Below, one piece after another: positions 27,001-42,556 of a stretch of DNA of 64,000 bases (its first letter is position 1; the number at the start of each line of letters is the position of its first letter). The notes below the pieces were generated by a model. It was not told the DNA's origin and did no database searches. It saw only the letters and a list, made by a program, of their open reading frames with translations. The position numbers and the translations under genes are program-made. Origin of the DNA: Longimonas halophila (lineage in GTDB: Bacteria; Bacteroidota; Rhodothermia; Rhodothermales; Salinibacteraceae); NCBI RefSeq assembly GCF_002554705.1, contig NZ_PDEP01000002.1, forward strand, positions 1-64,000, written 5' to 3'.

Positions 27001-30000
27001 TCGAGCACACTTTGCAGCGGATCGTTATTCAGGATCCGGATGCTTCCCGTGTATGGTCCTGGCTGAATGTCGCCGTTGAACGTGATGGCCAGCTCTTGCT
27101 CGCCATCTGGCGTCACGGTGCCTTCGTTGGGCTCAACCGTCACAGCGTCTGCCGGAAGCGGACGCACGCCCGGTTCACCTTCGACTTCAGAGAAGCCGTC
27201 GGCACGCAGGAGCCAGTTGCCGGGAATGCCCAACTCGTCGTTGTTTCCGAAGAGCCCGTTGTTGGGCAGGTCTTCGACGTCAAGTGCGTTCGGTCCGGCC
27301 AGGACGGTCCAAGAGGCGCCCTGCGGCGAACTGCTCTCATCGAGCGGTGCCGGAAACTCTCCGTCGGCATGATCACGATAGATCGCTGCCACGAAGAATA
27401 CCCCCTCTACCTCCACCGGAGCAATTTCCTCGGTGGTGAAGGTATCTGTGTGCGGCGCTTCTACCGTTGTTTCAACGGATTGCAGCAGTACCGCATCGCT
27501 GGGGTCGCCATCGTTGTTTGGATCGTTGTAAATCAACAGCTCAGCCGGGCCTCCTTCAGGAAAGCCGCTGCCTTCGCTTGATGCCCACGCCGACCCCAGA
27601 TTATCGATGACCGTCGCTTCTTCGACGGTTTCAAAGGCATTCAGCCAGAGAATATCACCGCCACCTTGCGTGCCCAGCGCGTTCTCACTCGATCCATCGT
27701 CGAGCTGATACACAAAGTCGCTGGCCTGGTAAGGCGCAGCCGACATGAGTCCAGCACGCGAGGGTGTGTCCGAGGCGAGAAGATCCGCGTTGCCGGTGTG
27801 CTGCGTGGCAGCATCGGCGCTGTAAGGAGCGGATACGGCAGATGGAGCCAGGTTAGCTGCACCACCCACGATGTTGACCTCATACTCGAGTTCGCCTTCG
27901 CCCGCGTTGCTTACGAGAAGCGTTTCTTCAAGCGTCTCCTCGAACGGAACGGTTACATCGAAGGATTCCGGATCGGCTGCAATGGAAGGAGCAGCGAGTC
28001 CTTCGCCAACAACAGCGACCTCAGCGGTCGGCTTGTTCTCGGCATTGCTTTCGATGGCAATAGTGCCAACTCGCACGCCGGTCTCAGATGGCGTAAACTC
28101 GACCTCAATTTCAGCCGTCTCGTTGTAAGCCAATGGTCCGGCAGACGTCGTAAGCGGCGTGAAGTCATCCGCGGCCGACGTAATGTTAGCGACCTCAAGG
28201 GTATCGCTACCCAGGTTGGTGATGTCGAACGTGAGGGTACCCGTGCTTCCCACCAGACGCTCATCGAACTCCAGCGTACGCGGATCCAGCACAATCTGTG
28301 GCGGACCGGCGTCAATGAAGAGTTCGACAGGCACATCGAGGGGGCTGTTCGCAAAGTCGTTGCTGAACAGGCTAATGTTGCCCTCGTAGTTGCCGGGATC
28401 AGAAGCCGTTCCATCGAACGTAACGGTGAGATCCTGGCTTCCGCCCGGCTCAACCGTTCCTTCGTTTGGAGCAACAGCAACGATGGGCGCGCCCGCATCA
28501 GCGCGGAGGAGCCAGTTCCCCGGCAGGTCGACATCATCGACGTTGGCCGGAGGCACATCGTTGGCCCCAAGATCTTCCGCATCAAAACTGTTCGGTGCAC
28601 TGGATCCAACGACCCACGAAGCACCTTCTGATGTGTCCTGATCTTGTGGAGCCGGGAACTCGTCTGCTCCCTGATCAACATAGAGCGCCGCCACGAAGAA
28701 TACACCTTCGACCTGTGTTGGGGCGATGGAGGCTTCCGTGAACTCGTCGGTGTGCGGGCTTTCAACCGTCACCTCAACGCGATCAAGCAAGACCGCATCG
28801 CTGGGGTCTCCGTCGTCGTTCGGATCTTCGTAAAGCAGGAACTCAGCAACGCGTCCTTCAGGAACACCTTCCTGTCCAGAAGCTCCCCAGGCCGAAGCAA
28901 TCGAGGTTATTGTGGTTGCGCCGTCGACAACTTCGAAAGCGTTCATCCACATCACGTCGCCCCCATCGGTCAAGCCGATGGCATCTTCGGAGCTTCCGTC
29001 GTCTACCTGGTAGATGTAGTCGCTGGCCTGGTAAGGCTGTTGCCCTGCCGGGCGTGCATTGCCCGAGGCCTGAAAGGCATCGGCGTTGGCCGAGCTGGTG
29101 CGTCCGGCAAACGGAGCAGCTACCGCACTCGGTTCTACGTCTTCGCCATTGGTGCTAAACACCGCCTCGTATTCGAGGTCGTTGCCGCCGCTGTTGCTTA
29201 CGCTAAGCGTGCGCTCGGCGATCGATCCGAGATCGACAGTTACGTCGAAGGCGTCTGGATCTACAGCGATTTCAGGCGCTTCCAACCCTTCGCCACTCAC
29301 GGAAACCGTAGTTTCAGGAGCGTTGTCGGCATTGCTCGCTACTGTAACTGCTGCATCGAACGTACCGACCGAGGTTGGAGCGAACGTGACCGGAATGCTT
29401 ACCGGGGCGTCGTCGAACGCCACTGTAATTGGCGTTTCAACGTCAACCGCGAACTGGTCGCTATCGGACTCGATGCTGGTGATCTCCAGATCTTCGCCGC
29501 CGGTGTTGTTGACGGTGAAGGATGCTGTAGCTTCTCCATTTTCGAGCACCGGATCGAACGCAATTTCAGCCGGATCCACCGCAATTTCGGGCGGGCCCGC
29601 AGTTACGCTGACGTTGAACGGAATGACAGACGTTGCTGCATTCGGATCGTTGCTTGCAAGCGGCAGGGTGTTTTCGTAGTCCCCTGCGCCCACGCCGGTT
29701 GCATCCAGCGTTACGGTGATATCATCACTGCTTCCACTGGAGAGCGACCCGGAGGCCGGGCTCACATCAGCAATGAAGTCGGGGACCGCGGCAATGTCTA
29801 CCGCCAACCCGTCTTCGACATAGCTGGTATTGAACGCAACTTGAAGTCCATCCAATCCCTCTGCATTCTCGACTCCAACCGTAGCTTCTTGGGCTGGGGT
29901 CATTGAAAGGTACTGGTAACGGACCGCTCCATTGGAATTCAGGATCACCTGGAAGGTGTTTGAACCATCTCCACCAAAGAACGGGATATCCGTGTACTGA

Positions 30001-32498
30001 ACGATAAACTGATTGCCATCGGCCAGATAATGGACGCTTCCACCGCTCGACGGATCAAGGTCATCCCAGAACGGGGCGATAATGTCGTTCGGATCGTCCG
30101 TATTCGGGATTTCATCGTTTGAAAAGTCCGTCCCGTCGGCTCCAAACGTCAGATATCCATTCGACCCAATCGTGACTTCTTCTTTGGTCTCTCCGTAGAA
30201 GTCGAAGCTAAAGGGCAAGGACACCGTTTCCGAATCGTCATCACCAAGTGTGACGGAGGTGCCCTCACCGGTAATGTCGGTCCAGTTGAAGGACGGTCCG
30301 CCCGGCTCATTGCTATCGATCCAGCGGTATCCGAACTCATCGGGTCCACCCGCGCCTAACAGCACCGGATGACCGGCTCCAGCATTGGGATCTTCGCCCT
30401 TGCTAAAGTTACGTGTCAGCCCAAGGGATGACGTATCGTTCGTTTCGATGCCCGACTGGCTCAGCAGATTCTGAGCAGCGATGCTGGGGAAGCTGTATTC
30501 GAGCGTGCTTCCCGCACTTCCGGTGTTTTCAACAGTGAGGCTTGTTGTCGTCGTACTGTTGATCTCAAGCGACGCATCTACCGACGCAGGGCTAAATGCC
30601 AGCTCGGGAGCCGGGCCTGTATTGGCAGACGGCGAGTTCGAAAGGTCGGAGCTATTGCCAAGTGCGTCAATCGCCTTGATGGAAAAGTAGACCTCTTCCT
30701 CAAACGGAAGGCCCTCGGCAGTGAAGCTTTCAGTTTCGCCTGCTTCCTGCGGGGCTGGTAGGCCCTCGATAGGCGTTGCCGCGTCGAACGCAGCCTCGCT
30801 ATCAATCGGGCCATCCGTGCTGTAACGCAGATCATAGCCCGTGGCTGTGCCTTCATTTCCTGCTTCTCCGGTGGCCGTCCATTGCAGATTCACGACGGCG
30901 CCGGGCGTAATGTTGTTAGGCGTGACCACAGTCAGATCCGTAATGGGATCGGGCGGCGTGTCTTCAGCACTCAGAGCTGCAAACGCATTTACGCGCGGGC
31001 CGATAGGTTCATCGGCGATCGTTTCGTCGCCTGTACCCACGAGACGCGCCTCCACCTGCTCAGCCGTAAAGCCGGGCTCGTTCGACGCAATCAGGGCCGC
31101 GGCTCCTGCAACGTGCGGTGCTGACATGGAGGTACCGACCCATATGTCGCCCCCATACGTGCCTTGTGACGTATGAATGGTGCTGATGGTGGGATGGTCG
31201 AACGCCTCGCCTGTAGGAGCAGAGATGTCTACCCAGTCGCCGAAGTTCGAACCAGAATATTTGTCGTCATTGTGCTGCGTACCCGCAACGGTAAAAGCAG
31301 GCTCGTAATAGCCCGGATACCATTCGTCGTCCGAGTCACTATTTCCAGCAGCAACCACTACGATGCCTCCATCCATGGGGGCATCTGGGCCACCTGCTTC
31401 AGCCACAAAGTAGTCAATGGCGTCAAGCAGCGGCTGTTCAAACACGCCAGGACTGGTGTATCCCCAACTATTGTTGGAGATAATAGCACCGTTGTCGGCT
31501 CCGTAAATCAGCGCTTCGGCGAACCCTGTCACGCTGCTTCCGAATGTCAACCCTGTCATGATGCGCACGCCGCTATCGGCGGTGCCATCACCGCCGGCTA
31601 CGCTTGCTACGCCTTCATTATTGTTGTTGCGCGCAGCAATCGTACCTGACACGTGCAGACCGTGCGAGTTGCCCTCTTGCGAGGGGTCTACAATTTCAGG
31701 ATTCGCGGTGCCATCAGCAAAGTTGTAGCCGTAAATGTCGTCGACATAACCATTGCCGCAGGTGTCGGTCCCGTCTTCTTCCTCACACGGGTTGATCCAG
31801 TAGCTGCCCTGCATATCGGGATGATCGAGCTCAATGCCCGAGTCAATCACCTGAACAATGACCTCCGAGCCCCCCATTTCGATGTCGTGGGCCTCAGGCA
31901 GATCAATGTCTGCATCGGGCGTTCCCCCCGTTTGTCCGGTATTGTTGAAGTGCCACTGATCTTCGTAAAGCGGATCGTTGGTCACATCGAGCCGTCCTTG
32001 CTCAACGTTCTCGACGAGTGCACGAACACGCTCAGTGCGTTCCGCGCGCGTCCCAACCTGCTGCTTTTTCAGCACATGGTCAGCCATTTCGACATTTGCG
32101 TCGGCATGGAAAGCGCTCACTGCGCTCCGCGTGATGCTCTCGGCATCTTCGGCCAGATACACGCGATACCACCGATCGAGCCCCCACTTGGCGTGGCGCT
32201 CGGCGTGGCGCTGATCCGTCGGAAACATGCGCTCGATGCGCTGGGCATCGAACTGGGCACTCAGCGCATCAATGCTGCTGATGCCCATCTGCGCAACATC
32301 GCCTGCATTTGACAGGCTGATGCCCGACTTTGCACTTTCGCTCACCTTAACGTGAAAGACTCCGTTTACGAGCGCATCGCTGGGCGCATCGTGATTCAGC
32401 GCTTGTCCCCAGGCCGTCGGGGCCAACAGGAATAGCGCCATCATCACCGGCCAAGCGCGCGCTGCACTTGATTGGATCCAATCCCACATTGCGGCCAT
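24012..32498 (-). CDS. Giant secreted S8 (subtilisin-like) protease with T9SS C-terminal sorting domain
   Basis: About 2,828 residues and strongly acidic. The ATG at 32498 puts the signal helix WPVMMALFLLAPTAWGQA close to the start; the frame is open further upstream. The S8 catalytic triad is complete: Asp in QVIDSGIELDHPD (near 218), His in SHGLHVSGTIAA (near 279), Ser in GTSMSAPHVAGAAAL (near 457). An FN3-like domain (516-620) follows, then Hydin/SPD-2-like beta modules. Two larger modules occur twice in mirror order: A (~632-920), B (~1074-1336), B' (~1503-1777), A' (~1948-2250). A PKD/cadherin-like stretch comes next, and the last ~85 residues (AYPNPVQSQATVQYTL ... VYDMLGRRVATL ... ASGVYFGRL) are a type A Por/T9SS sorting domain. 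It is expected on the cell surface or secreted through T9SS. Confidence 0.93.
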   Translation of the reverse strand: MAAMWDWIQSSAARAWPVMMALFLLAPTAWGQALNHDAPSDALVNGVFHVKVSESAKSGISLSNAGDVAQMGISSIDALSAQFDAQRIERMFPTDQRHAERHAKWGLDRWYRVYLAEDAESITRSAVSAFHADANVEMADHVLKKQQVGTRAERTERVRALVENVEQGRLDVTNDPLYEDQWHFNNTGQTGGTPDADIDLPEAHDIEMGGSEVIVQVIDSGIELDHPDMQGSYWINPCEEEDGTDTCGNGYVDDIYGYNFADGTANPEIVDPSQEGNSHGLHVSGTIAARNNNNEGVASVAGGDGTADSGVRIMTGLTFGSSVTGFAEALIYGADNGAIISNNSWGYTSPGVFEQPLLDAIDYFVAEAGGPDAPMDGGIVVVAAGNSDSDDEWYPGYYEPAFTVAGTQHNDDKYSGSNFGDWVDISAPTGEAFDHPTISTIHTSQGTYGGDIWVGTSMSAPHVAGAAALIASNEPGFTAEQVEARLVGTGDETIADEPIGPRVNAFAALSAEDTPPDPITDLTVVTPNNITPGAVVNLQWTATGEAGNEGTATGYDLRYSTDGPIDSEAAFDAATPIEGLPAPQEAGETESFTAEGLPFEEEVYFSIKAIDALGNSSDLSNSPSANTGPAPELAFSPASVDASLEINSTTTTSLTVENTGSAGSTLEYSFPSIAAQNLLSQSGIETNDTSSLGLTRNFSKGEDPNAGAGHPVLLGAGGPDEFGYRWIDSNEPGGPSFNWTDITGEGTSVTLGDDDSETVSLPFSFDFYGETKEEVTIGSNGYLTFGADGTDFSNDEIPNTDDPNDIIAPFWDDLDPSSGGSVHYLADGNQFIVQYTDIPFFGGDGSNTFQVILNSNGAVRYQYLSMTPAQEATVGVENAEGLDGLQVAFNTSYVEDGLAVDIAAVPDFIADVSPASGSLSSGSSDDITVTLDATGVGAGDYENTLPLASNDPNAATSVIPFNVSVTAGPPEIAVDPAEIAFDPVLENGEATASFTVNNTGGEDLEITSIESDSDQFAVDVETPITVAFDDAPVSIPVTFAPTSVGTFDAAVTVASNADNAPETTVSVSGEGLEAPEIAVDPDAFDVTVDLGSIAERTLSVSNSGGNDLEYEAVFSTNGEDVEPSAVAAPFAGRTSSANADAFQASGNARPAGQQPYQASDYIYQVDDGSSEDAIGLTDGGDVMWMNAFEVVDGATTITSIASAWGASGQEGVPEGRVAEFLLYEDPNDDGDPSDAVLLDRVEVTVESPHTDEFTEASIAPTQVEGVFFVAALYVDQGADEFPAPQDQDTSEGASWVVGSSAPNSFDAEDLGANDVPPANVDDVDLPGNWLLRADAGAPIVAVAPNEGTVEPGGSQDLTVTFDGTASDPGNYEGNISLFSNDFANSPLDVPVELFIDAGPPQIVLDPRTLEFDERLVGSTGTLTFDITNLGSDTLEVANITSAADDFTPLTTSAGPLAYNETAEIEVEFTPSETGVRVGTIAIESNAENKPTAEVAVVGEGLAAPSIAADPESFDVTVPFEETLEETLLVSNAGEGELEYEVNIVGGAANLAPSAVSAPYSADAATQHTGNADLLASDTPSRAGLMSAAPYQASDFVYQLDDGSSENALGTQGGGDILWLNAFETVEEATVIDNLGSAWASSEGSGFPEGGPAELLIYNDPNNDGDPSDAVLLQSVETTVEAPHTDTFTTEEIAPVEVEGVFFVAAIYRDHADGEFPAPLDESSSPQGASWTVLAGPNALDVEDLPNNGLFGNNDELGIPGNWLLRADGFSEVEGEPGVRPLPADAVTVEPNEGTVTPDGEQELAITFNGDIQPGPYTGSIRILNNDPLQSVLDVPVDMLVDAGPPEVALDPESLTFDGTLVGASRTLTFEISNAGGNPLIIDSVTSDSEDFIIEDDLAFDVRDDTTEVSVEFAPTAVGTRSGVITLQTNIGEDETVTLPVEGEGLVPPALALNPDVLQNVQQTNTQEDVPLTISNDGDSGSTLNYSFPAFAAQNVLSQPGVERNNTSSVVNGTRSFEKGDADPHAGQGHPVQLGAGGPDGFGYRWIDSNEFGGPSFEWVDISENENAVALDLTDDFLGTPSVEVDLPFEFDFYGEAKTSVRVDNNGFLFFDSPSGNYFINQEIPTPGAPNGIVAPFWVDLNPDAGGNVYVYDDSENNRFIVQYNEVPPFALGETEDAYTFQIILTAEGMIRYQYLDMDGPTSGATVGVENADGSDGLQVAFGTDYIENNLAVDIAFVPQFIANVEPASGSIGSGESESVQVTFDSEGLDVGVYGQEGRFGLGVSTNDPRATFGYTPAVLSVVGENGPTIADAPADQELTLGGAPFEVDLSTVFTDPIGDGLEYSIEASNPALVDAALEGSTLTVTPTGAGISTVSIAASNADGEARAEFAATVGQLAVDVSRDFGGQAADATNYRLVALPGDISLPMSDVVAGEVGLDWQAYWDNGADADALVQYDGTETFTFEPGRGFWLTGQSAWEHQGEYNAIELDRPDGRVAVPLHDGWNIVSNPMGMDLDWAAVEALNEGSFQPLWAFNGAFSESETLGSAMSGEAYYFLNDGGLNELVLQPGEEQPEPPSETAGAATPDTDPLISMAATLVDRPDVTSTVQLGVTESSATAKPLVGPPSAFEAVSLRIQPDADDQALASAETQPPLMRSQRTMSGEGETFTLTLRTQAEGPVEIRFSDLTALNGREAALLHPSAGTTYDLSTNSTVTLEPDSDEITLRVAIGTQAFVDGAVDEVLPTELTLTAYPNPVQSQATVQYTLTEAEDVRFEVYDMLGRRVATLTNERKQAGVHEVPFDASQLASGVYFGRLHVGGQTLTQKITVVR

Positions 32499-32996
32499 GT
32501 GCCCCTCTGGGGGCCCCGTGCCATTATGAGATGGATCTGTATCGTTCCAATGATCCATAACTGCAGTTGGTGTACGGTCAGAAAATTGCGAGTACCGTGT
32601 ACTGGCTCCATCTTGGTGGAGACCGGATGTACCTGAAGACACACTGGGTCCCTGTAGCCGCTGGAGTAGATTGCCGTACGGCGGTAGGGGGCGAACGCCC
32701 TTCCATGCACACGGAAAGCCGTCCACTGCCCAGCATTCTTAAACTGTCTCAATAAGGCATCGGCGCGCATACAACGATACGAACTGACTCGATTATGCGC
32801 TTGGGGGACAAGCAGGTACGGCTTTGAACCGCACCTTTTGCACGATGCGTATATTATCGTAACATGACGCTCACAGAAGGGCAAACATGAACTTCACTTT
32901 TATCGTGAACAAGGGATGAACTGACCTGCAGATGCGGAGGTGTGTTTTTTGTACGATGGCAGACGTAAGGCAGTATCTGTTGCGCACGATGCTGCC
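32499..32996. other. Intergenic region upstream of the S8 protease
   Basis: About 500 bases. The first ~230 bases upstream of the protease ATG stay open in its frame but encode a sequence without a signal peptide or known domain, so they are treated as non-coding. The rest is AT-richer and should hold the protease promoter; no confident boxes or palindromes were found. Confidence 0.45.
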
Positions 32997-34193
32997 TTAC
33001 TCGCCAGCGGCCACAGGCACCCATGCGCTGTAGTAATGCTGTGCACCAAGCATCACAATCGACATCCCAGCCAGAAGCATGGCCAGTCCAGCAAAGGCTA
33101 CGCCCCACCCCCACACATCGGCAGCAAAGCCCGTTGCCACGCTGCCCGTTGCCCCTAACACCATGTAGCTGGTGCGGATAAGCCCAAATCCGGCACCGCG
33201 CTCATCGGCGCTGAGGTGGTCCATGAACTTCGGAAGCAGCGCAGCCCCCCAGCTCATGGCAATGCCCACACAACCAGTGGCTACAACGAGCGCCTCCATG
33301 CTGCTTCCTACCACAAAGAGCCCGTACCCTACGGCTCCAACAGTCGTTGCTAACGTAGCCGCAGGGTACCGCCCAATACGATCAGAGAGCCCGCCCACAA
33401 GCGGCTGTCCCAGTCCCTGCACCACGAAATAGGCCGAGAAAAAGACACCGGCTCCTGCTTCTGTGTATCCATGGTGGGCGACCAGAAAGGTGGGAAGAAA
33501 TGACGCAGTGGCCTGCCACACAAACGCCCCCACAAATGCAAGAGCGCCTGTCCACAAGATCGGCGGACGCGCCAGCAGCTCGGCAATAGGGCGTACCCGA
33601 ATGCGTGTCCATACGGCGGTGTCTGGACGGCTTGGGGGGGTGTCGCGGACGGTCTTCACGAAAAGAAGAGCGGTGGGGATGGCCACCATAGCGCCAACGG
33701 CAACGGCGTATCGCCATCCGAACATAGCGCCCAGTGTACCCGCAGCAACCGGCGTAAGCACTCCGGCCAGGGGCGCTCCAGCAGAGTGGATGCCGATCGC
33801 TGTACCCGTTTGGCGGAACGTGCGCGTAAGCAGCGAGGTCGCCGCGCTGTAGTGCAGCCCGGCCATTGCCCCGAGGGCCACCGCTGCAGCAAAAAAGAGC
33901 GCGTACCCGTCTGCAATTGCCAAGAGTCCACTGGTTATAGCGGTACCTACTACCGCTGTGAGGACAACAACCCGCTCGCCCAGCCGATCGCCCAATAGGC
34001 CGCTGGGAAACTGCGAGAGCGCATAGGCCATCCACATCCCCGTAAGCGCAGCACCAATGGCCCCGTTCGACACCCCGAACTCGGCACTCATAGCGGGCAC
34101 TACTGGACTAATAGCCAAACGCGCAGCCATCGTCGCGAAAAAGGCCAGGGTACATGCGGCCAATACGGCTCCGTTATAAGACCACAGGTTCAC
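32997..34193 (-). CDS. Major facilitator superfamily transporter
   Basis: A 398-residue 12-helix transporter. The loop 2-3 motif A is GLLGDRLGERVVVL and its second-half counterpart is GGLSDRIGRYPAATL, both diagnostic of MFS. The GTG at 34193 is taken as the start because the first helix (NGAVLAACTLAFFATMAAR) follows at once; an upstream ATG at 34301 would add 36 polar residues. Transport class is not resolved; the pattern resembles nitrate/oxalate-type or sugar-phosphate antiporter-like carriers. It is monocistronic as far as can be seen. Confidence 0.87.
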   Translation of the reverse strand: MNLWSYNGAVLAACTLAFFATMAARLAISPVVPAMSAEFGVSNGAIGAALTGMWMAYALSQFPSGLLGDRLGERVVVLTAVVGTAITSGLLAIADGYALFFAAAVALGAMAGLHYSAATSLLTRTFRQTGTAIGIHSAGAPLAGVLTPVAAGTLGAMFGWRYAVAVGAMVAIPTALLFVKTVRDTPPSRPDTAVWTRIRVRPIAELLARPPILWTGALAFVGAFVWQATASFLPTFLVAHHGYTEAGAGVFFSAYFVVQGLGQPLVGGLSDRIGRYPAATLATTVGAVGYGLFVVGSSMEALVVATGCVGIAMSWGAALLPKFMDHLSADERGAGFGLIRTSYMVLGATGSVATGFAADVWGWGVAFAGLAMLLAGMSIVMLGAQHYYSAWVPVAAGE

Positions 34194-34653
34194 AGCGCAG
34201 TCAGCTTTGGGCGTAAAGATTGCGAACACCTGCGATACGAAAGGGAACCCGCTGCGGTCCTGTAGCGCGCAACGTGCCTGCAACATTGCCGGGCATTCCA
34301 TCGGATTATCGCATCCGCAATTCCGTACTCATCAGCAGGTGTAGCAATAGCTTCCCACTTTGCGTAATGCACCTGGTGTAATTTGGGACGCGTACTTGTT
34401 ACGTTATCTGATCCTTGTTTCAGTCGGGGCTTCTATGATGGGCGTTGTACAAAAACGGAGCAGTCCTCTGTACGTAAACCGTTCCAGGGTGCCCCTCTCG
34501 GTTTTAACAAGGGCGTTACGCCTACTACCCCCAAAATCACGAAGCCATAATGAACAATGCCCAATCCACAAATCTATGAGCAACGCTTGCGTGCGCCAAT
34601 GCTTTTACATATGCCGTCGATACTTTTGTAAGTGATGCGCGGGGCCTGCTCAA

Positions 34654-34672
34654 CGAGCCACAACCTGGCTCG
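34654..34672. promoter_or_regulatory. Inverted repeat upstream of the mevalonate cluster
   Basis: CGAGCCA-CAACC-TGGCTCG: perfect 7-base arms with a 5-base loop, 183 bases before the HMG-CoA reductase ATG. It could be an operator or part of an RNA leader. Confidence 0.35.
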
Positions 34673-34722
34673 GAGCCATGCATGAAGAACCCATGCGTGC
34701 AGACGCCCCTTACTCTGAGTTA

Positions 34723-34796
34723 GTTTACATGCTCGGCTCTACACAAGTCGAGCGGTCTTCTTGGCCCTGTGCGGGCTCCGATCCCGACATGTAAAC
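34723..34796. promoter_or_regulatory. Large inverted repeat upstream of HMG-CoA reductase
   Basis: GTTTACATG at 34723-34731 pairs perfectly with CATGTAAAC at 34788-34796, and the helix can extend by TCGG/CCGA after a one-base bulge. The roughly 48 enclosed bases contain further complementary stretches. It ends 58 bases before the HMG-CoA reductase ATG, so it would lie in the leader RNA or the promoter. Confidence 0.4.
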
Positions 34797-34854
34797 ATCT
34801 CTTGCAGATGAACGTGGTAACGAGAGTCCTTTGAATCTAAATACCTGTAGGGCA

Positions 34855-36171
34855 ATGAATAGCGGTAGCCCCACCAACGGTACAGCCTCGGCGCGTACCA
34901 CCCTCGAAAAACCAGCCCCAACGCAACGCGAGGAGCTTATTCAAGCCCTGGCCACTGGTCAACTCTCCCTCCACAAACTTCCGAAGGACCTCCCAGCGCG
35001 CGAGGCGGCGTCGATCCGGCGCGAGGCGCTTGAGCAAGCGGCCGATACCAAAACCAAAGGACTTGATCACTATTCGTTTGATGCTGAGGTCGTGTCGACC
35101 CGCAATTGCGAGAACCTCATCGGCGTGGCCCAGGTGCCCATGGGCGCGGTGGGTCCGGTACCGGTGCGCGGCGACTACATCAATGACGACCGCTACGTGC
35201 CACTGGCCACCACCGAGGGCGCCCTCATCGCCAGCGTGAACCGTGGCTGTGCCACCCTGCGGGCGGCCGACGGGGCTATTGTGCATGTGGAGGACGTAGG
35301 CATGACGCGTGCCCCCGTGTTTCGCACATCGGGCATCCGCGAGTCCACGGCCTTTACGGATTGGGTCGAAGACAACGAAGATGAGATTCGCACACAGGTT
35401 GAGGCTACCAGCCGCTACCTCAAGCTGAAAGACATCCGCCCGTTTTCGCTGGGCTCGACCGTGTTTCTGCGCTTTCGCTTCTCCACCGGCGACGCCATGG
35501 GCATGAACATGGCTACACTCGCATGCAATCAGGTCATCCAAGACCTCATTGTGCCCGAAACAGGCGTCGAGTTTGTCTCGCTTTCGGGCAACTACTGCGT
35601 CGATAAAAAGCCTTCCGCCGTAAACGTGCAAGAAGGTCGCGGCAAGCGTATCTTTGCCGAGGTTGAGCTTAGCGAGGAGGTGCTGAAGCGCTACCTGAAA
35701 ACGAATGCGGAAGACCTCACCGAGGTGCAGTACCGCAAGAACATGCTTGGCTCCACCGCAGCGGGTTCCATGGGCATGAACGCCCACTACGCCAACATGG
35801 TGGCGGCCTTCTTTGTGGCCACAGGCCAAGACATCGCGCAGGTTGTTGAGGGCGCGCTGGGCACCACCTGCATCGAAAAACGGGGCGACGGCGGCGTGTA
35901 CATCTCCATCTTTATGCCGGATGTGCCGCTCGGCGCCATTGGGGGCGGCACCACGCTGCAGACGCAGTCGGATGCGCTCTCGCTCATGGGCGTGGCGCTC
36001 GACCCCGACGAACCGGGCGCTGCGGCGATGCAGGTAGCTGAACTGCTGGGGGCAACCGTGCTCGCGGGCGAGCTCTCGCTCATGGGGGCTCTCAGCTCGC
36101 ACCACCTGGCACGGGCCCACAATGACCTGGGCCGCCCCACCCCGCCATCGAACGGCCACGCCGCACAGTAA
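34855..36171 (+). CDS. hmgA: HMG-CoA reductase (class I-like)
   Basis: A 438-residue enzyme that reduces HMG-CoA to mevalonate with NAD(P)H, the committed step of isoprenoid synthesis here. Class I features are present: ENLIGVAQVPMGAVGP, the catalytic Glu in PLATTEGALIASVNRGC, the Lys in DKKPSAVNVQEGRGK, the Asp in TGDAMGMNMAT, GAIGGGTTLQTQ and the C-terminal catalytic His in HHLARAH. No membrane anchor is present, so it is soluble as in archaea. The ATG at 34855 is chosen; a TTG 24 bases upstream is in frame. It leads the mevalonate cluster, with mevalonate kinase starting 35 bases later. Confidence 0.95.
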   Translation: MNSGSPTNGTASARTTLEKPAPTQREELIQALATGQLSLHKLPKDLPAREAASIRREALEQAADTKTKGLDHYSFDAEVVSTRNCENLIGVAQVPMGAVGPVPVRGDYINDDRYVPLATTEGALIASVNRGCATLRAADGAIVHVEDVGMTRAPVFRTSGIRESTAFTDWVEDNEDEIRTQVEATSRYLKLKDIRPFSLGSTVFLRFRFSTGDAMGMNMATLACNQVIQDLIVPETGVEFVSLSGNYCVDKKPSAVNVQEGRGKRIFAEVELSEEVLKRYLKTNAEDLTEVQYRKNMLGSTAAGSMGMNAHYANMVAAFFVATGQDIAQVVEGALGTTCIEKRGDGGVYISIFMPDVPLGAIGGGTTLQTQSDALSLMGVALDPDEPGAAAMQVAELLGATVLAGELSLMGALSSHHLARAHNDLGRPTPPSNGHAAQ

Positions 36172-36206
36172 CACCGCCGCCCCGTCGCTTTTCTGGATGC
36201 GCCTTT

Positions 36207-37292
36207 ATGCACGAAACGACCGTCCGCGCCCCGGCCAAGCTAATCCTGATGGGTGAGCATGCGGTCGTATACCAGCGGCCCGCGCTGGTGGCCGCTCTCG
36301 GCCTCTGGATGCATGCCACCGCCGCTCCCAAGACTACTGCTGGCGTTACGCTTCAGGTGGATGCGTGGGGCCACACCGAAACCACCACCTGGCCTGCCAT
36401 CCGGGCCTATGCCGACGAGATGCGGTCCCGCTGGCGCGACTATGCCGCCTACCCCACTGCCGAGGCCTTCGCGCACCTGCGCAGCACCGACCCCACGCAC
36501 CTCATTAAAGTGGCGCTGGGCGAGGCTGCCCGCGCTGTCGACATCACTCCGCAGCCGCTTACGCTTAGCGTGCAGTCCGATCAGCCGGTGGGGGCCGGAT
36601 TCGGAAGCTCGGCTGCCCTCGGAGTGGCGGTGGCGCGCGCTTACCTCGAAGCCCACGAGGCGCCCTTCACCCACGACTTGCTCTTCGACATTGCCCTCAA
36701 CATCGAGCGGCGCCAGCACGGCACCCCCTCGGGCGTCGACCCCGCTACCATTCTACGTGGCGGGCTCCTGTGGGCCGAGTCCGACAATGACGCGCTGCAC
36801 TGGCACTCGGTGGAAGCGCGCGCGCCGGTGCTCTCCGACATCCGGATCTTTCACACCGGCGCGCCCAACGAATCCACCGGCACCGTGGTCGATGCCGTGC
36901 GCGCCCGCCGGACCGACGACCCCGATGCGTTCGAAGCCATTATTGACCGCATCGAGGCGGCGACGCGTGCGCTTCGCGATCTGCTCTCAGCCCCCGACGT
37001 GTCGCCTTCGGCGCTGGTCGACCTCCTGCAAGAGGGTGAGGCCTGCCTCGAAGCGCTCGGCGTAGTGCCCCCAGCCATCCGCCACCACATCCGCCAGATT
37101 GAAGCACATGGCGGAGCCGCCAAAATCTCGGGCGCGGGTGCCCTCACCGACCCACATGCCGGCTCGCTGATCGCGTATCATCCCGATCCGACCACCGACC
37201 TCTGGGACGACCTGTCTTCGTTCTCTTCGTTTAACGTGCCTCTGTGTGTGCAGGGCGCACATCCTCTTCAATCCGCCCACGTGCATGGCTAA
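36207..37292 (+). CDS. mvk: Mevalonate kinase
   Basis: A 361-residue GHMP kinase converting mevalonate to mevalonate 5-phosphate. Visible are the N-terminal APAKLILMGEHAVVYQRPAL, the ATP loop PVGAGFGSSAALGVAVARAYL, GTPSGVDPATI with the catalytic Asp region, and the C-terminal motif AAKISGAGALTDPH. The family's third motif is normally K-x-x-G-A-G-x-G-G; here the final glycines are replaced (SGAGALTD), a mild deviation. The stop overlaps the next gene's start by 8 bases, indicating translational coupling within the mevalonate operon. Confidence 0.93.
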   Translation: MHETTVRAPAKLILMGEHAVVYQRPALVAALGLWMHATAAPKTTAGVTLQVDAWGHTETTTWPAIRAYADEMRSRWRDYAAYPTAEAFAHLRSTDPTHLIKVALGEAARAVDITPQPLTLSVQSDQPVGAGFGSSAALGVAVARAYLEAHEAPFTHDLLFDIALNIERRQHGTPSGVDPATILRGGLLWAESDNDALHWHSVEARAPVLSDIRIFHTGAPNESTGTVVDAVRARRTDDPDAFEAIIDRIEAATRALRDLLSAPDVSPSALVDLLQEGEACLEALGVVPPAIRHHIRQIEAHGGAAKISGAGALTDPHAGSLIAYHPDPTTDLWDDLSSFSSFNVPLCVQGAHPLQSAHVHG

Positions 37293-38280
37293 AGCAACCG
37301 TTGAAGCTCCCTCCAACATCGCCTTTGTGAAGTACTGGGGCGTCGAAGACATCGACCGCGCCATTCCGCGCGCGCCGTCGCTGTCGATGACGCTGCGCCG
37401 CTGTGCCTCACGCACCACTGTTGCCTTCACCCCCGATGCCGACACCGACGACACGGTGCTCATGGCCGATGCCGAGGGCACCCTGCATCCTGCCGATGAC
37501 GGCTTTGCCGAGCCCGTCGTGCAGCACCTGAATCGCCTGCGCACCTGGGCCGACCGCCCCGGCTCATTCCGCGTGGCCACACAGAATAGCTTCCCCGCCG
37601 CTGCCGGACTCGGCTCCTCGGCCTCGGGCTTTTCGGCGCTTACCCTGGCGACGCTCAAGGCGCTCGACACCTGGCCCGATGCCGCCACCCGCTCGGCGCT
37701 TGCCCGTCAGAGCGGCTCCGGCTCCGCGGCCCGCTCGGTACTCGGCGGATACGTAGCCTGGCCCCACGGCGACAACCACGCCGCCGAACCGGTTGCCCCG
37801 CACACGCACTGGGACCTGCGCGATGTGATCGCGGTCGTCGAGACCGATCCTAAACCCGTCTCCTCGCGCGAGGGGCATCAGCGCGCGCCCAGCAGCCCGT
37901 TTTACGAAAAACGCCTGTCGCATCTGCCTGAGCGCATGCAGACCGCCCGCGCGAGCATCGCGGCGCGCGACTTCGACCGCCTGGGTCCGCTCATCGAAAC
38001 CGAAGGCGTAGAACTGCACCTCATCACCATGTCGTCGCAGCCGCCCATCTACTACTGGAAACCCGCCACGCTCAAGGTGCTGGAGGTTGTGCGCGCCATG
38101 CGATCCGACGGACTCGCCGCCTACGCCACGATGGATGCGGGCGCCAACGTGCATGTCATCTGCCCACCCGAAGACGAGCCGCAGGTCGCCGCTCGCCTCG
38201 ATTCGATGCACGCCGTCCACATGGTCATCCGCGACGGCGTCGGACCCGGCCCCACCACCGACGTCGATCCGCTGTTTTAG
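37285..38280 (+). CDS. Mevalonate (di)phosphate decarboxylase family protein
   Basis: A 331-residue GHMP-family decarboxylase. It has NIAFVKYWGVEDIDRAIP, SLSMTLRRCASRTTV, the phosphate loop AAAGLGSSASGFSALTLATL, the Arg-containing SGSGSAARSVLGGYVAW and the catalytic Asp region in TMDAGANVHVIC. In classical diphosphomevalonate decarboxylases the first motif reads KYWGK; here the Lys is Val. Combined with an isopentenyl phosphate kinase gene next door and no phosphomevalonate kinase in view, the substrate may be mevalonate 5-phosphate instead of the diphosphate. Family assignment is firm; substrate is open. It starts inside the end of mevalonate kinase. Confidence 0.92.
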   Translation: MAKATVEAPSNIAFVKYWGVEDIDRAIPRAPSLSMTLRRCASRTTVAFTPDADTDDTVLMADAEGTLHPADDGFAEPVVQHLNRLRTWADRPGSFRVATQNSFPAAAGLGSSASGFSALTLATLKALDTWPDAATRSALARQSGSGSAARSVLGGYVAWPHGDNHAAEPVAPHTHWDLRDVIAVVETDPKPVSSREGHQRAPSSPFYEKRLSHLPERMQTARASIAARDFDRLGPLIETEGVELHLITMSSQPPIYYWKPATLKVLEVVRAMRSDGLAAYATMDAGANVHVICPPEDEPQVAARLDSMHAVHMVIRDGVGPGPTTDVDPLF

Positions 38281-38421
38281 CATTGTCTTTCAGGGGAACG
38301 CACAGCCCACTGCCTCCCTGATTGCCCGGATGCAGTTCGCCCGGCCCCGGCCTCCCGTAGCGGGCCTCGTATGTGAGCGGCCGTGCTCGTCTCATTTGCC
38401 TCTGCCAGTTTGCCACGCGCC

Positions 38422-39228
38422 ATGCGCCCAGTCACCTTTGTAAAGTGGGGCGGCAGCCTCATCACCGACAAAACGGGCCGCTTCTCCGTACGCACGGATG
38501 TGCTTGAGCGCCTGGCCGACGAGCTGGCCCGCTACCACGCCGCCCCCCCCAACGCGCCGATCGTGCTGGGCCACGGCAGCGGCTCGTTCGGACACGTTGC
38601 CGCCCGCGAGGCCGGGTTCGATCCCGGTGCCCCCCTCCCCGATCCGGCACCCGCTTTGAGCCAGATCCAAAAGGCAGTGGATACCCTGCACCGGCATGTG
38701 GTACACGCCCTGCGCAACGCCGGACTCCCCGTGTTTTCGTGGGCACCGTCCAGCGCGTTTGTCACAACCCGAGGCACCCCCGAACGTAGCTCATCAGATC
38801 CCGTGCATCACGCGCTCTCTGCAGGAGCACTCCCCGTCACCTACGGCGATGTCACGCTCGACACCAAGCACGGGCTGAGCATCTGCTCCACCGAAACCGT
38901 CTTCCGTACGCTTATCGACGCGCTGCAGCAGCAAGGCCCCCCTGTCGCTCGCGTGCTCTGGTGCGGCAACACCGACGGTGTGTACGACGCCAACGGCCAC
39001 ACGCTGCCCGACCTCACCGCCGAACAAGCTCGCACTATGATTGGCGATGTGCATGACCCCGACGGCACCGACGTCACCGGCGGAATGGCATTGCGCCTGC
39101 GCACCGCCAGCGCCCTTGCCGAGCAAGGCATCGACTCGCTGCTACTGAATGGCACCGTGCCGAACCGGTTTGCTGCGGCCCTCCGCAACGACCCCGATGC
39201 GCACCGCACACACATTGCTGCTGGGTAG
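38422..39228 (+). CDS. Isopentenyl phosphate kinase
   Basis: A 268-residue amino-acid-kinase-fold enzyme that phosphorylates isopentenyl phosphate to IPP. It begins TFVKWGGSLITDK, and carries GHGSGSFGHVAA with the His that defines IPK within the fold, PVTYGDVTLD, and the ATP-side motif GNTDGVYDANG followed by TGGMALRLRTASALAEQG. Length and motif order match archaeal and bacterial IPKs. The ATG at 38422 is chosen for its fit to the family start. It closes the mevalonate cluster and ends in a hairpin that overlaps its stop codon. Confidence 0.9.
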   Translation: MRPVTFVKWGGSLITDKTGRFSVRTDVLERLADELARYHAAPPNAPIVLGHGSGSFGHVAAREAGFDPGAPLPDPAPALSQIQKAVDTLHRHVVHALRNAGLPVFSWAPSSAFVTTRGTPERSSSDPVHHALSAGALPVTYGDVTLDTKHGLSICSTETVFRTLIDALQQQGPPVARVLWCGNTDGVYDANGHTLPDLTAEQARTMIGDVHDPDGTDVTGGMALRLRTASALAEQGIDSLLLNGTVPNRFAAALRNDPDAHRTHIAAG

Positions 39229-39254
39229 CTATCGCATAGCTGTCGCCAGCAGCA
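39216..39254. other. Nested hairpin across the isopentenyl phosphate kinase stop codon
   Basis: TGCTGCTGG pairs with CCAGCAGCA (9 perfect pairs) and encloses AGCTAT-CGC-ATAGCT (6 perfect pairs). It spans the end of the isopentenyl phosphate kinase gene and lies between two convergent genes. No T-run follows on either side, so termination by this hairpin alone is uncertain. Confidence 0.55.
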
Positions 39255-39333
39255 CCTCAACGCCAAACGGCCCGCCACCGGGGCGAGCCGCTCATGCTTT
39301 CGGAATCAGGTGGATGAAGCGAAAACGTCGTGC

Positions 39334-40992
39334 TTACGCGGTCTTGGGCGAAGCGTCGAACGCACGATTGACGAGCGCCTGCGCATCTTCGTGGATCTGG
39401 TTGAGATGGTCGCGACCGTTGAAGCTCTCGCCGTAGATCTTGTAGATGGCTTCGGTGCCCGAGGGGCGCGCCACAAACCACCCGTTCTCCGTCTCTACCT
39501 TGAGTCCGCCAATGGCCGCGTCGTTGCCGGGCGCGTTGGTGCGGATCGTCTGAATGGGCTCGCCTGCGAGTTCGTCTTGCGTCACCAGATCGGGCGTCAG
39601 GTTTTTGAGGACGGCCTTCTGTTCGGGCGTGGCCGGTGCATCCACCCGCTCATACACCGGGTTACCAAACTGCTCGGTGAGTTCGTCGTAGCGCTCGCTG
39701 GGGTCTTGACCCGTGCGGGCCGTGATTTCGGCGGCCATGAGTGCCGCGATGATGCCGTCTTTGTCGGTGCTCCAGACTGTGCCGTCCTTGCGCAGGAACG
39801 AGGCCCCCGCGCTCTCTTCGCCTACGAAGCCGCAACTGCCATCGTAGAGCACATCCACGAACCACTTGAAGCCGACCGGCACTTCCGTAACCGGGCGCCC
39901 GTAGTCCGCGGCAATGCGGTTAAGTAGGCGCGTGGTAACGACCGTTTTGCCCACGCCCACATCATCGGCCCAGCCGGTACGGCTGCTGAGCAGTGCATCC
40001 ACCATCACGCTCAGGTACGCATTGGGCGGCATGAGTCCGCCGTTTTTTGTGACGATGCCGTGGCGGTCGTGATCGGTGTCACACGCAAAGGCGACGTCGT
40101 ACTCATCTTTCAGGTTGATGAGCGACTGCATCGCGTAGGCCGACGACGGATCCATGCGGATCTGGCCGTCCCAGTCAAGGGTCATGAACGAGAACGTAGG
40201 GTCGACCTCAGTGCGTAGCACCTCCAACGGCAAGTCGTACGTGTCGGCGATGGCTGTCCAGTAGTGCACGCCGGCTCCGCCCAGCGGGTCGACGGCAAGG
40301 GAGAGCCCCGACTCGCGAATGATCTCCATGTCGAGGACCGCGTCCAGGTCGTCGACGTAGTGACGCAGGAAATCGTACTCTTGCGTGGTGTCGGCCCGCA
40401 GGGCCTGCTCGTAGCCGATGCGCTTCACATCGGCCAGCTTGGTGTCGAGATGCTGATTGGCGCGGTTCTGAATCCAGTTAGTGGCCGTGGGCGTGGCCGG
40501 GCCGCCGGTAGGACCGTTGTACTTAATGCCGCCATCAGCGGGCGGGTTGTGCGAGGGCGTGATGATGACGCCGTCAGCCTGCCCTTCGGCGCGTCCGTCG
40601 TTGTACGTTAGAATGGCGTGGGATACAGCAGGGGTGGGCGTTACCCCGTCATCGGCGGCAATGCGCACATCAATCTCGTTCGCAGCGAACACTTCCAGAC
40701 ACGTGGCCTGTGCGGGGGCCGAGAGGGCATGCGTATCCATCCCCAGGAACAGCGGCCCGGTGATGCCTGCTTCATCGCGATAGTCGCACACGGCCTGGGC
40801 AATGGCCAGGATGTGCGCTTCGTTGAAGGTGCGGTCGAAGGCCGTGCCGCGATGGCCCGAGGTGCCAAACGATACGCGCTGCGCCGCTACTGACGGATCA
40901 GGCTGGTCGTTTTGGTAGGCGGCAAGCAGTGCCGATACGTCGAGCAGTTGGTCGCTGGGGGCCGGTTGTCCGGCTAAGTCGTGTGTGCTCAT
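39334..40992 (-). CDS. pgm: Phosphoglucomutase (alpha-D-glucose phosphate-specific)
   Basis: A 552-residue phosphohexomutase interconverting glucose 1-phosphate and 6-phosphate. It has the N-terminal RVSFGTSGHRGTAFDRTFNE, the phosphoserine loop TPSHNPPADGGIKYNGPTGG, the Mg-binding DTDHDRHGIVT, the sugar-specificity GEESAGASFLR and the phosphate-binding RPSGTEAIYKIYGES. Length matches the E. coli Pgm class. It converges on the mevalonate cluster and appears to be transcribed alone. Confidence 0.95.
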   Translation of the reverse strand: MSTHDLAGQPAPSDQLLDVSALLAAYQNDQPDPSVAAQRVSFGTSGHRGTAFDRTFNEAHILAIAQAVCDYRDEAGITGPLFLGMDTHALSAPAQATCLEVFAANEIDVRIAADDGVTPTPAVSHAILTYNDGRAEGQADGVIITPSHNPPADGGIKYNGPTGGPATPTATNWIQNRANQHLDTKLADVKRIGYEQALRADTTQEYDFLRHYVDDLDAVLDMEIIRESGLSLAVDPLGGAGVHYWTAIADTYDLPLEVLRTEVDPTFSFMTLDWDGQIRMDPSSAYAMQSLINLKDEYDVAFACDTDHDRHGIVTKNGGLMPPNAYLSVMVDALLSSRTGWADDVGVGKTVVTTRLLNRIAADYGRPVTEVPVGFKWFVDVLYDGSCGFVGEESAGASFLRKDGTVWSTDKDGIIAALMAAEITARTGQDPSERYDELTEQFGNPVYERVDAPATPEQKAVLKNLTPDLVTQDELAGEPIQTIRTNAPGNDAAIGGLKVETENGWFVARPSGTEAIYKIYGESFNGRDHLNQIHEDAQALVNRAFDASPKTA

Positions 40993-41102
40993 AGTGGAAT
41001 CGGGAAACGCTATGGGAAAGACTCGTGGGTTCTATGATAACGAATGTCGTGCGGAGATCCTACTCGCTGCTTCCCTCCTGCCAAAAAAAGTCTGGAGCGC
41101 TG

Positions 41103-41645
41103 CTACTGCACGCGATCCGGGTTCGCATCCACAAAGCTGCCCCAGCCGCTGTACTGCTCGGTGGCGCCGTGCGAGCGGCGGTTGGTGTGGCAGAGCGCAA
41201 TGGCCAGCGCGTCGGAGGCGTCGAGGGCGATGGCATCCGCCGTACCGTCCATCTCCAGAATCGCGTGGATCATGTAGCGCACCTGCTGCTTCGACGCGTT
41301 GCCGTTGCCGGTCACCGACTTCTTGACTTCCTTGGGCGTGTACTGCACGACATCCAGATCGTGGTTGAGTCCCGCCATCATGGCGGCGGCCTGCGCGCGC
41401 CCCAGCTTCAGCATCGACTGCGGGTTTTTCCCGTACACGGGCATCTCAATGGCCAGCACCTCCGGGTCGTGCGCCTCGATGAGCACCGCCACCTCGTCGT
41501 AGATGCGCTTGAGCCGGTCGATGTGCGGCGTATCGCTATCCAGCCGAATGACACCCTGGGCCGGGGTCGTTTCGTCGGATCCGGTCACCCGTACCACGCC
41601 GTAGCCCGTACAGTTGGATCCGGGGTCAATACCAAGAATAATCAT
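41103..41645 (-). CDS. ruvC: Crossover junction endodeoxyribonuclease RuvC
   Basis: A 180-residue Holliday junction resolvase. The four acidic catalytic residues are in place: Asp in ILGIDPGSNCTGYG, Glu in LAIEMPVYGKNPQS, and the Asp pair in ALDASDALAIALCH. It cuts recombination intermediates, acting with RuvAB. The gene follows yebC on the same strand with 38 bases between, a neighbourhood widely seen in bacteria; ruvA and ruvB are not in the window. Confidence 0.96.
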   Translation of the reverse strand: MIILGIDPGSNCTGYGVVRVTGSDETTPAQGVIRLDSDTPHIDRLKRIYDEVAVLIEAHDPEVLAIEMPVYGKNPQSMLKLGRAQAAAMMAGLNHDLDVVQYTPKEVKKSVTGNGNASKQQVRYMIHAILEMDGTADAIALDASDALAIALCHTNRRSHGATEQYSGWGSFVDANPDRVQ

Positions 41646-41683
41646 GCCGATGCGCTATTGTCGAGGGAAGTAGCACGCAGACG

Positions 41684-42436
41684 TCAGTCGTCGGAGTGGA
41701 GCGAGAGCGCCTCGCCATCATCGGCGAGCGTCGTGTACACCGCGTCCACATCGTCGTGGTCCTCAATGGCTTCGACAAGCGTGCGCACCTGCTCAGCATC
41801 CGAATCGTCGAGCGATACGGTGGTGGCGGGGATGCGCACCAGATCAGCCTCGTCGACGGGAATGTCAGCCGATTCGAGGGCGTCTTCTACGTTGGTGAAC
41901 GTTTCGACCGGCGTGGTCACGACGTACGTGTCGTCTTCGGTGCGCAGATCTTCGGCGCCCGCCTCCACCACCCGCTCGAACAGCTCCAACTCATCGACGG
42001 CATCCGTGGGCACCTGAATCTCCCCTTTCTGCTCAAAGAGGTAGCCCACGGATCCATCTTTCCCCAGATTGCCGTTGTGGGTGCTGAACAGATGCCGCAG
42101 ATCGGCCACGGTGCGGTTGGTGTTGTCGGTCATCGCCTCGATAAACACCGCTACGCCGTGGGGCGCATAGCCCTCGTAGCTGACCGGCTCATAGTCTTGG
42201 CCTTCGAGTTCGCCCGTGCCTCGCTTGATGGCACGCTCGATGGTGTCCTTGGCCATGTTCTCGGCCTCGGCACGCTCAATGGCGTTGGCCAGCGTCGCAT
42301 TCATCTCAGGATCGCCCCCGCCCTCACGGGCAGCTGTTGCGATCTCGCGCGAGAGACGCGCCCACACCTTCGACTTCTTCTTGTCCTCTTTGGCTTTCTG
42401 CCGCTTGATCTTCGACCATTTATTGTGTCCAGCCAT
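41684..42436 (-). CDS. YebC/PmpR family protein
   Basis: A 250-residue protein with the conserved start MAGHNKWSKIKRQKAKEDKK, the EGGGDPEMNATLANAIERA segment and the acidic central region SVGYLFEQKGEI. The family was long described as transcriptional regulators; more recent work links members to relief of ribosome stalling. The ATG at 42436 is fixed by the conserved N-terminus, discounting an open extension to 42550. It is upstream of ruvC and probably co-transcribed with it. Confidence 0.95.
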   Translation of the reverse strand: MAGHNKWSKIKRQKAKEDKKKSKVWARLSREIATAAREGGGDPEMNATLANAIERAEAENMAKDTIERAIKRGTGELEGQDYEPVSYEGYAPHGVAVFIEAMTDNTNRTVADLRHLFSTHNGNLGKDGSVGYLFEQKGEIQVPTDAVDELELFERVVEAGAEDLRTEDDTYVVTTPVETFTNVEDALESADIPVDEADLVRIPATTVSLDDSDAEQVRTLVEAIEDHDDVDAVYTTLADDGEALSLHSDD

Positions 42437-42556
42437 GCCGTATCCGGAGTCTATTTGCAGAGTGCTGGGTGTGCAGTAGATTTGATACGAAAGGGATGCA
42501 GAGGGGATTCGTAGGAGCGTGACGTCCCTCCCGTTGGCCGCGTTCTCCATGATGGA

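Follow-up and report, generated by a model that had tools for sequence, protein, structure and literature searches.

The window analysed here, a stretch of 64,000 nucleotides from Longimonas halophila, carries genes for HMG-CoA reductase (HMGR), mevalonate kinase (MK), a decarboxylase of the MVD family and isopentenyl phosphate kinase (IPK) in one row (Table 1). These genes very probably belong to an alternative (haloarchaea-type) mevalonate pathway that is the sole route to IPP in this organism, the gene set having been acquired from a lineage with an acidobacterial-type operon and the MEP pathway having been lost. In this pathway HMG-CoA synthase and HMGR would supply mevalonate, the reductase making it, and MK would convert mevalonate to mevalonate 5-phosphate. 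The MVD-family enzyme would use ATP to phosphorylate the 3-hydroxyl and then decarboxylate the product to isopentenyl phosphate, which IPK would convert to IPP. HMG-CoA synthase and a type 1 isopentenyl diphosphate isomerase (Idi) encoded elsewhere in the genome would complete the route. The predicted order from mevalonate 5-phosphate through isopentenyl phosphate to IPP is well supported by the comparisons given below, and this route would be expected to carry the flux to IPP.

Table 1. Genes of the mevalonate cluster and the two specificity codons of the decarboxylase (positions in the window)
Feature	Position	Strand	Basis
HMG-CoA reductase, class I (NADPH type)	34855..36171	+	TIGR00533 463.9 bits (cut-off 441.8); PF00368 380 bits
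Mevalonate kinase (MK), GHMP family	36207..37292	+	TIGR00549 159.2 bits (cut-off 163.05); PF00288 57 bits
Predicted mevalonate 5-phosphate decarboxylase (PMD), MVD family	37285..38280	+	PF22700, PF18376, TIGR01240 223.1 bits (cut-off 171.35)
Codon of Val20 (KYWG-V)	37342..37344	+	Column of S. epidermidis MDD Lys21; alignment
Codon of His198 (EG-H)	37876..37878	+	Column of S. epidermidis MDD Met196; alignment
Isopentenyl phosphate kinase (IPK), amino acid kinase fold	38422..39228	+	NF040647 143.8 bits (cut-off 120)

The initial annotation had read positions 34855-39228 as a cluster of these four genes in which kinase and decarboxylase overlap, and both observations hold. All four are plus-strand open reading frames recognised by curated profiles; the MK and decarboxylase frames share 8 bases (ATGGCTAA), and 141 bases separate the decarboxylase from IPK. 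HMGR starts with an ATG at 34855, with an alternative in-frame TTG possible at 34831. In the NCBIfam profile search the four scores far exceed chance, and those of HMGR, the decarboxylase and IPK lie over the cut-offs. MK scores slightly under its own; no other family scores better, and its best solved relatives are mevalonate kinases. Gene order and flanking genes are identical in a second genome of the genus (L012). Compared with the congener, HMGR has 98.6% amino acid identity and dN/dS is 0.019 for HMGR, 0.105 for MK, 0.123 for the decarboxylase and 0.268 for IPK, so that all four genes are under purifying selection. Elsewhere in the window, the minus strand (24012-32726) encodes a subtilisin-like protein of 2904 aa with repeated domains and a C-terminus resembling a T9SS sorting signal.

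The assembly comprises 3.73 Mb in 35 contigs, one of which, 337 kb in length, contains the window; it is 92.4% complete. PF00288 identifies three GHMP kinases in the genome, namely MK, the decarboxylase and the homoserine kinase ThrB, which adjoins homoserine dehydrogenase. The absence of a phosphomevalonate kinase (PMK) from the window, pointed out in the initial annotation, therefore extends to the whole assembly as far as the GHMP type is concerned, and the genome search for PMK and for DXP genes turned out as that annotation predicted, with no match to DXR or IspH of the MEP pathway either. Besides HMGR and MK, the genome contains HMG-CoA synthase, on the same contig as the window (C2:246036), and type 1 Idi (C5:98832). 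AcnX (PF04412) has no match in this genome or in six relatives. The parts list thus matches the alternative mevalonate pathway, and none of the other known ways of making IPP, in support of the gene set originally proposed.

Two other mevalonate routes have to be weighed against these absences. The first is the classical pathway, in which a kinase that is unrelated or escaped detection, or MK acting twice, would make mevalonate 5-diphosphate for the decarboxylase, and IPK would only recycle isopentenyl phosphate, as has been proposed for plants. A PMK could lie in the missing part of the 92.4% complete assembly or be of the animal type (PF04275), which is outside the GHMP-type search, but a GHMP-type PMK is also missing from the three related genomes that carry the cluster, whose additional GHMP kinase is ThrB in every case. 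With completeness taken as 92, 86, 85 and 90% for the four genomes, the chance of missing an ancestral PMK in all of them is about 2e-4 if gaps are assumed to be independent. We consider the classical pathway improbable. The second is the archaeal modified (trans-anhydromevalonate) pathway, in which AcnX and trans-anhydromevalonate phosphate decarboxylase would feed IPK and the MVD-family gene would have some other role. It likewise ends with IPK, but it uses no MVD homologues (PMC9254496), yet one adjoins IPK here under purifying selection. The AcnX profile, unmatched in the present genome, does match in archaeal controls, and we regard this explanation as barely credible.

The preferred reading, decarboxylation of mevalonate 5-phosphate, depends on the substrate of the decarboxylase. 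The solved chain nearest to the window decarboxylase is 6n0x (E 1.4e-63), the Anaerolinea thermophila PMD with mevalonate 5-phosphate bound, and mutagenesis has switched PMD specificity to DMD (PMC9254496). Over the aligned stretch 6n0z differs from 6n0x by only two changes, Lys for Asn in KYWGN and Met for His in QGH, and in our reading of the two chains these are probably the specificity mutations of the engineered PMD. At the same two columns the window decarboxylase has the PMD-type residues Val20 and His198, versus Lys and Met in the diphosphate enzymes of S. epidermidis and E. faecalis. A non-lysine at the Lys21 column has been taken as the mark of a PMD (PMC3857490), and a lysine/histidine pair has likewise been used as a specificity mark (PMC11052028). 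The catalytic aspartate is retained (Asp284). At column 193, however, the window decarboxylase has an MDD-like Arg, which counts against the PMD reading. Enzymes of Chloroflexota that share this Lys/His pattern are described as having dual specificity (PMC11052028), so the window decarboxylase may retain some activity on the diphosphate.

The family names given by profiles do not bear on the substrate. TIGR01240 calls the window protein a diphosphomevalonate decarboxylase, which would favour the classical pathway, but the proven Anaerolinea PMD receives the same name, and the PMD state of both specificity positions speaks against that pathway. The window protein scores 153 bits against NF040704 (phosphomevalonate decarboxylase MvaD), under the cut-off of 475; the proven PMD also falls under it, at 197.6 bits, which indicates that this cut-off misses bacterial PMDs. 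We therefore dropped NCBIfam names as evidence for substrate. Arg83 of R. castenholzii (Ile27 column) was also dropped as a PMD marker, Patescibacteria enzymes having Arg or Lys there as well.

Columns 21 and 196 vary with gene context among the relatives of the decarboxylase. Each of the 32 rows from Acidobacteriota, Planctomycetota and Rhodothermota has a non-basic residue at 21 and His at 196, and IPK adjoins the decarboxylase in 30 of them. In the Patescibacteria/DPANN rows (n=16), column 21 holds Lys or Arg in 14 and column 196 holds Gln or Met in 13; mostly two GHMP kinases are nearby, without a neighbouring IPK. Few independent lineages lie behind these 32 and 16 rows and hence behind the link between residues and context. 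As a separate observation, many Patescibacteria/DPANN MVD-family proteins, most of them encoded beside two GHMP kinases, have Asn (TxNTGQ) at the catalytic Asp283 column (L072, L084, L093, L099, L106, L108, L110, L112, L113, L116, L068 and L111).

The identity of IPK is more straightforward. Among solved structures it is closest to isopentenyl phosphate kinases (7lnt, E 3.2e-26), with FomA far lower. The catalytic His is present (His58 in GSFGH), together with the conserved residues that PMC3857490 lists for IPKs. The best of the weak matches to the IPK profile elsewhere in the genome (C1:483352) was rejected as a second IPK, since from its reading frame it is a glutamate 5-kinase beside glutamate-5-semialdehyde dehydrogenase.

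Within the class, IPK scores over the cut-off in 4 of 245 genomes, which belong to two genera of a single family. IPK and the decarboxylase co-occur in four genomes of this family: that of the window, its congener (G005) and two of the second genus (G025 and G026). DXR is found in none of these four. It is present in 19 of the 27 genomes of the family, and it could be argued from this majority that MEP is the true source of IPP and that the cluster was imported and is either secondary or decaying. That DXR and IspH are missing here and in four relatives, and that the four cluster genes are intact with dN/dS of 0.02-0.27, makes such a reading very unlikely. Two genomes of the second genus lack parts of the gene set. 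In G024 HMG-CoA synthase was found, and DXR, IspH, IPK, the decarboxylase and Idi were not detected; with 88% completeness, gaps in the assembly are the probable cause. In G025 (85% complete; L013:4847-7388) the row has no MK between the decarboxylase and HMGR, and the rest of the genome yielded no GHMP kinase of the MK type. The surroundings of the cluster, named from the reading frames, differ between the genera, with an MFS transporter and phosphoglucomutase in Longimonas (window 33000-42550) and G6PDH/6PGL and a DmpA-like peptidase in the other (L013/L014). The cluster has thus either moved or been inserted twice.

Our results also suggest where the gene set may have come from. Relatives of the decarboxylase were drawn from a set of 84,980 species genomes, and the closest outside Rhodothermota are from Acidobacteriota, with 49-57% identity. 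The gene order idi2-HMGR-MK-decarboxylase-IPK is found in most of the related Acidobacteriota loci, in a Planctomycetota locus (L066) and in G026 of Rhodothermota. The tree of the decarboxylase places the four Rhodothermota rows together with 26 from Acidobacteriota and 2 from Planctomycetota in a strongly supported clade (100*). In the concatenated tree Rhodothermota are one clade (100/100), nested in a larger clade, also at 100/100, that includes Acidobacteriota and Planctomycetota, and supported branches force the Acidobacteriota label to change at least twice. The trees point to no particular donor within Acidobacteriota, the base of the clade being a polytomy and the Rhodothermota branch long. 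For homoserine kinase, the protein of the window genome shares 75-77% identity with that of the other cluster-bearing genus and about 52% with those of the MEP-using genera; this one marker agrees with the two genera being sisters and with one gain of the cluster. The second genus retains idi2; the window genus lacks the idi2 of the operon and has type 1 Idi, as do the MEP-using relatives.

Taken with the gene content, these trees suggest a lateral replacement of the MEP pathway from a clade with the idi2-HMGR-MK-PMD-IPK operon. The gene set would have been gained in the common ancestor of the two halophilic genera, from a donor lineage with the acidobacterial type of operon, and the resident MEP pathway would then have been lost; the direction and the timing of this transfer are our inference. 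More broadly, we lean towards the view that the five-gene PMD/IPK operon moves as a unit among Acidobacteriota, Planctomycetota and Rhodothermota, and that it took the place of MEP in a single step in the ancestor of the two genera.

While the chemistry is already known, its occurrence in this lineage and the spread of the operon appear to be new. The alternative pathway has been given for haloarchaea, for certain other archaea and for Chloroflexota (PMC9254496, PMC11052028), and clear bacterial IPKs were found only in class Chloroflexi (PMC3857490). We found no report of the pathway in Rhodothermota or Acidobacteriota in the open-access literature searched, outside which most subscription papers fall. 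The initial description of the route as rarely documented in Bacteroidota relatives was thus right as to its rarity and, given that no Rhodothermota report was found, an understatement. The present data extend the pathway to Rhodothermota and, in operon form, to many Acidobacteriota, and provide a clear natural case of MEP replacement inside one family, with MEP-using relatives at hand for comparison. The pathway has probably been under-counted, since standard profile names mislabel bacterial PMDs, and the divergent PMDs described here offer material for learning what determines mono- versus diphosphate specificity. If the operon is indeed transferred as a unit, the pathway would be widespread among bacteria, hidden under the wrong annotation 'diphosphomevalonate decarboxylase', and no mere curiosity of Chloroflexota and haloarchaea.

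Haloferax and Roseiflexus had been named at the outset as the known examples. The predicted route is the same, but the nearest relatives found belong to an operon that is widespread in Acidobacteriota. The order of reactions predicted for the window is that of Haloferax volcanii, as described where PMC9254496 cites Vannice et al. (2014); this archaeal system is not among the 80 nearest decarboxylase relatives retrieved, and the likeness is one of pathway, not of direct sequence comparison. Like the window, Roseiflexus castenholzii and other Chloroflexota (Dellas et al. 2013, PMC3857490) have HMGR, MK, a PMD-type decarboxylase with a non-lysine at the Lys21 column, and IPK, without PMK. The window differs in being from another phylum, in its operon-like row of genes, in the placement of its decarboxylase on another branch of the tree, and in having Ala at the Ile27 column instead of Arg or Thr. 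The Anaerolinea thermophila PMD (Thomas et al. 2019, as cited in PMC9254496), the nearest solved relative, shares the His and a non-basic residue at the other position, which is Val in the window instead of Asn; at column 193 the window has Arg instead of Thr. Closest of all is the idi2-HMGR-MK-MVD-IPK operon of Acidobacteriota and Planctomycetota, which shares gene order and specificity pattern with the window, at about 48-57% identity for the decarboxylase, and from which the window differs in having no idi2 in the row and a type 1 Idi elsewhere in the genome.
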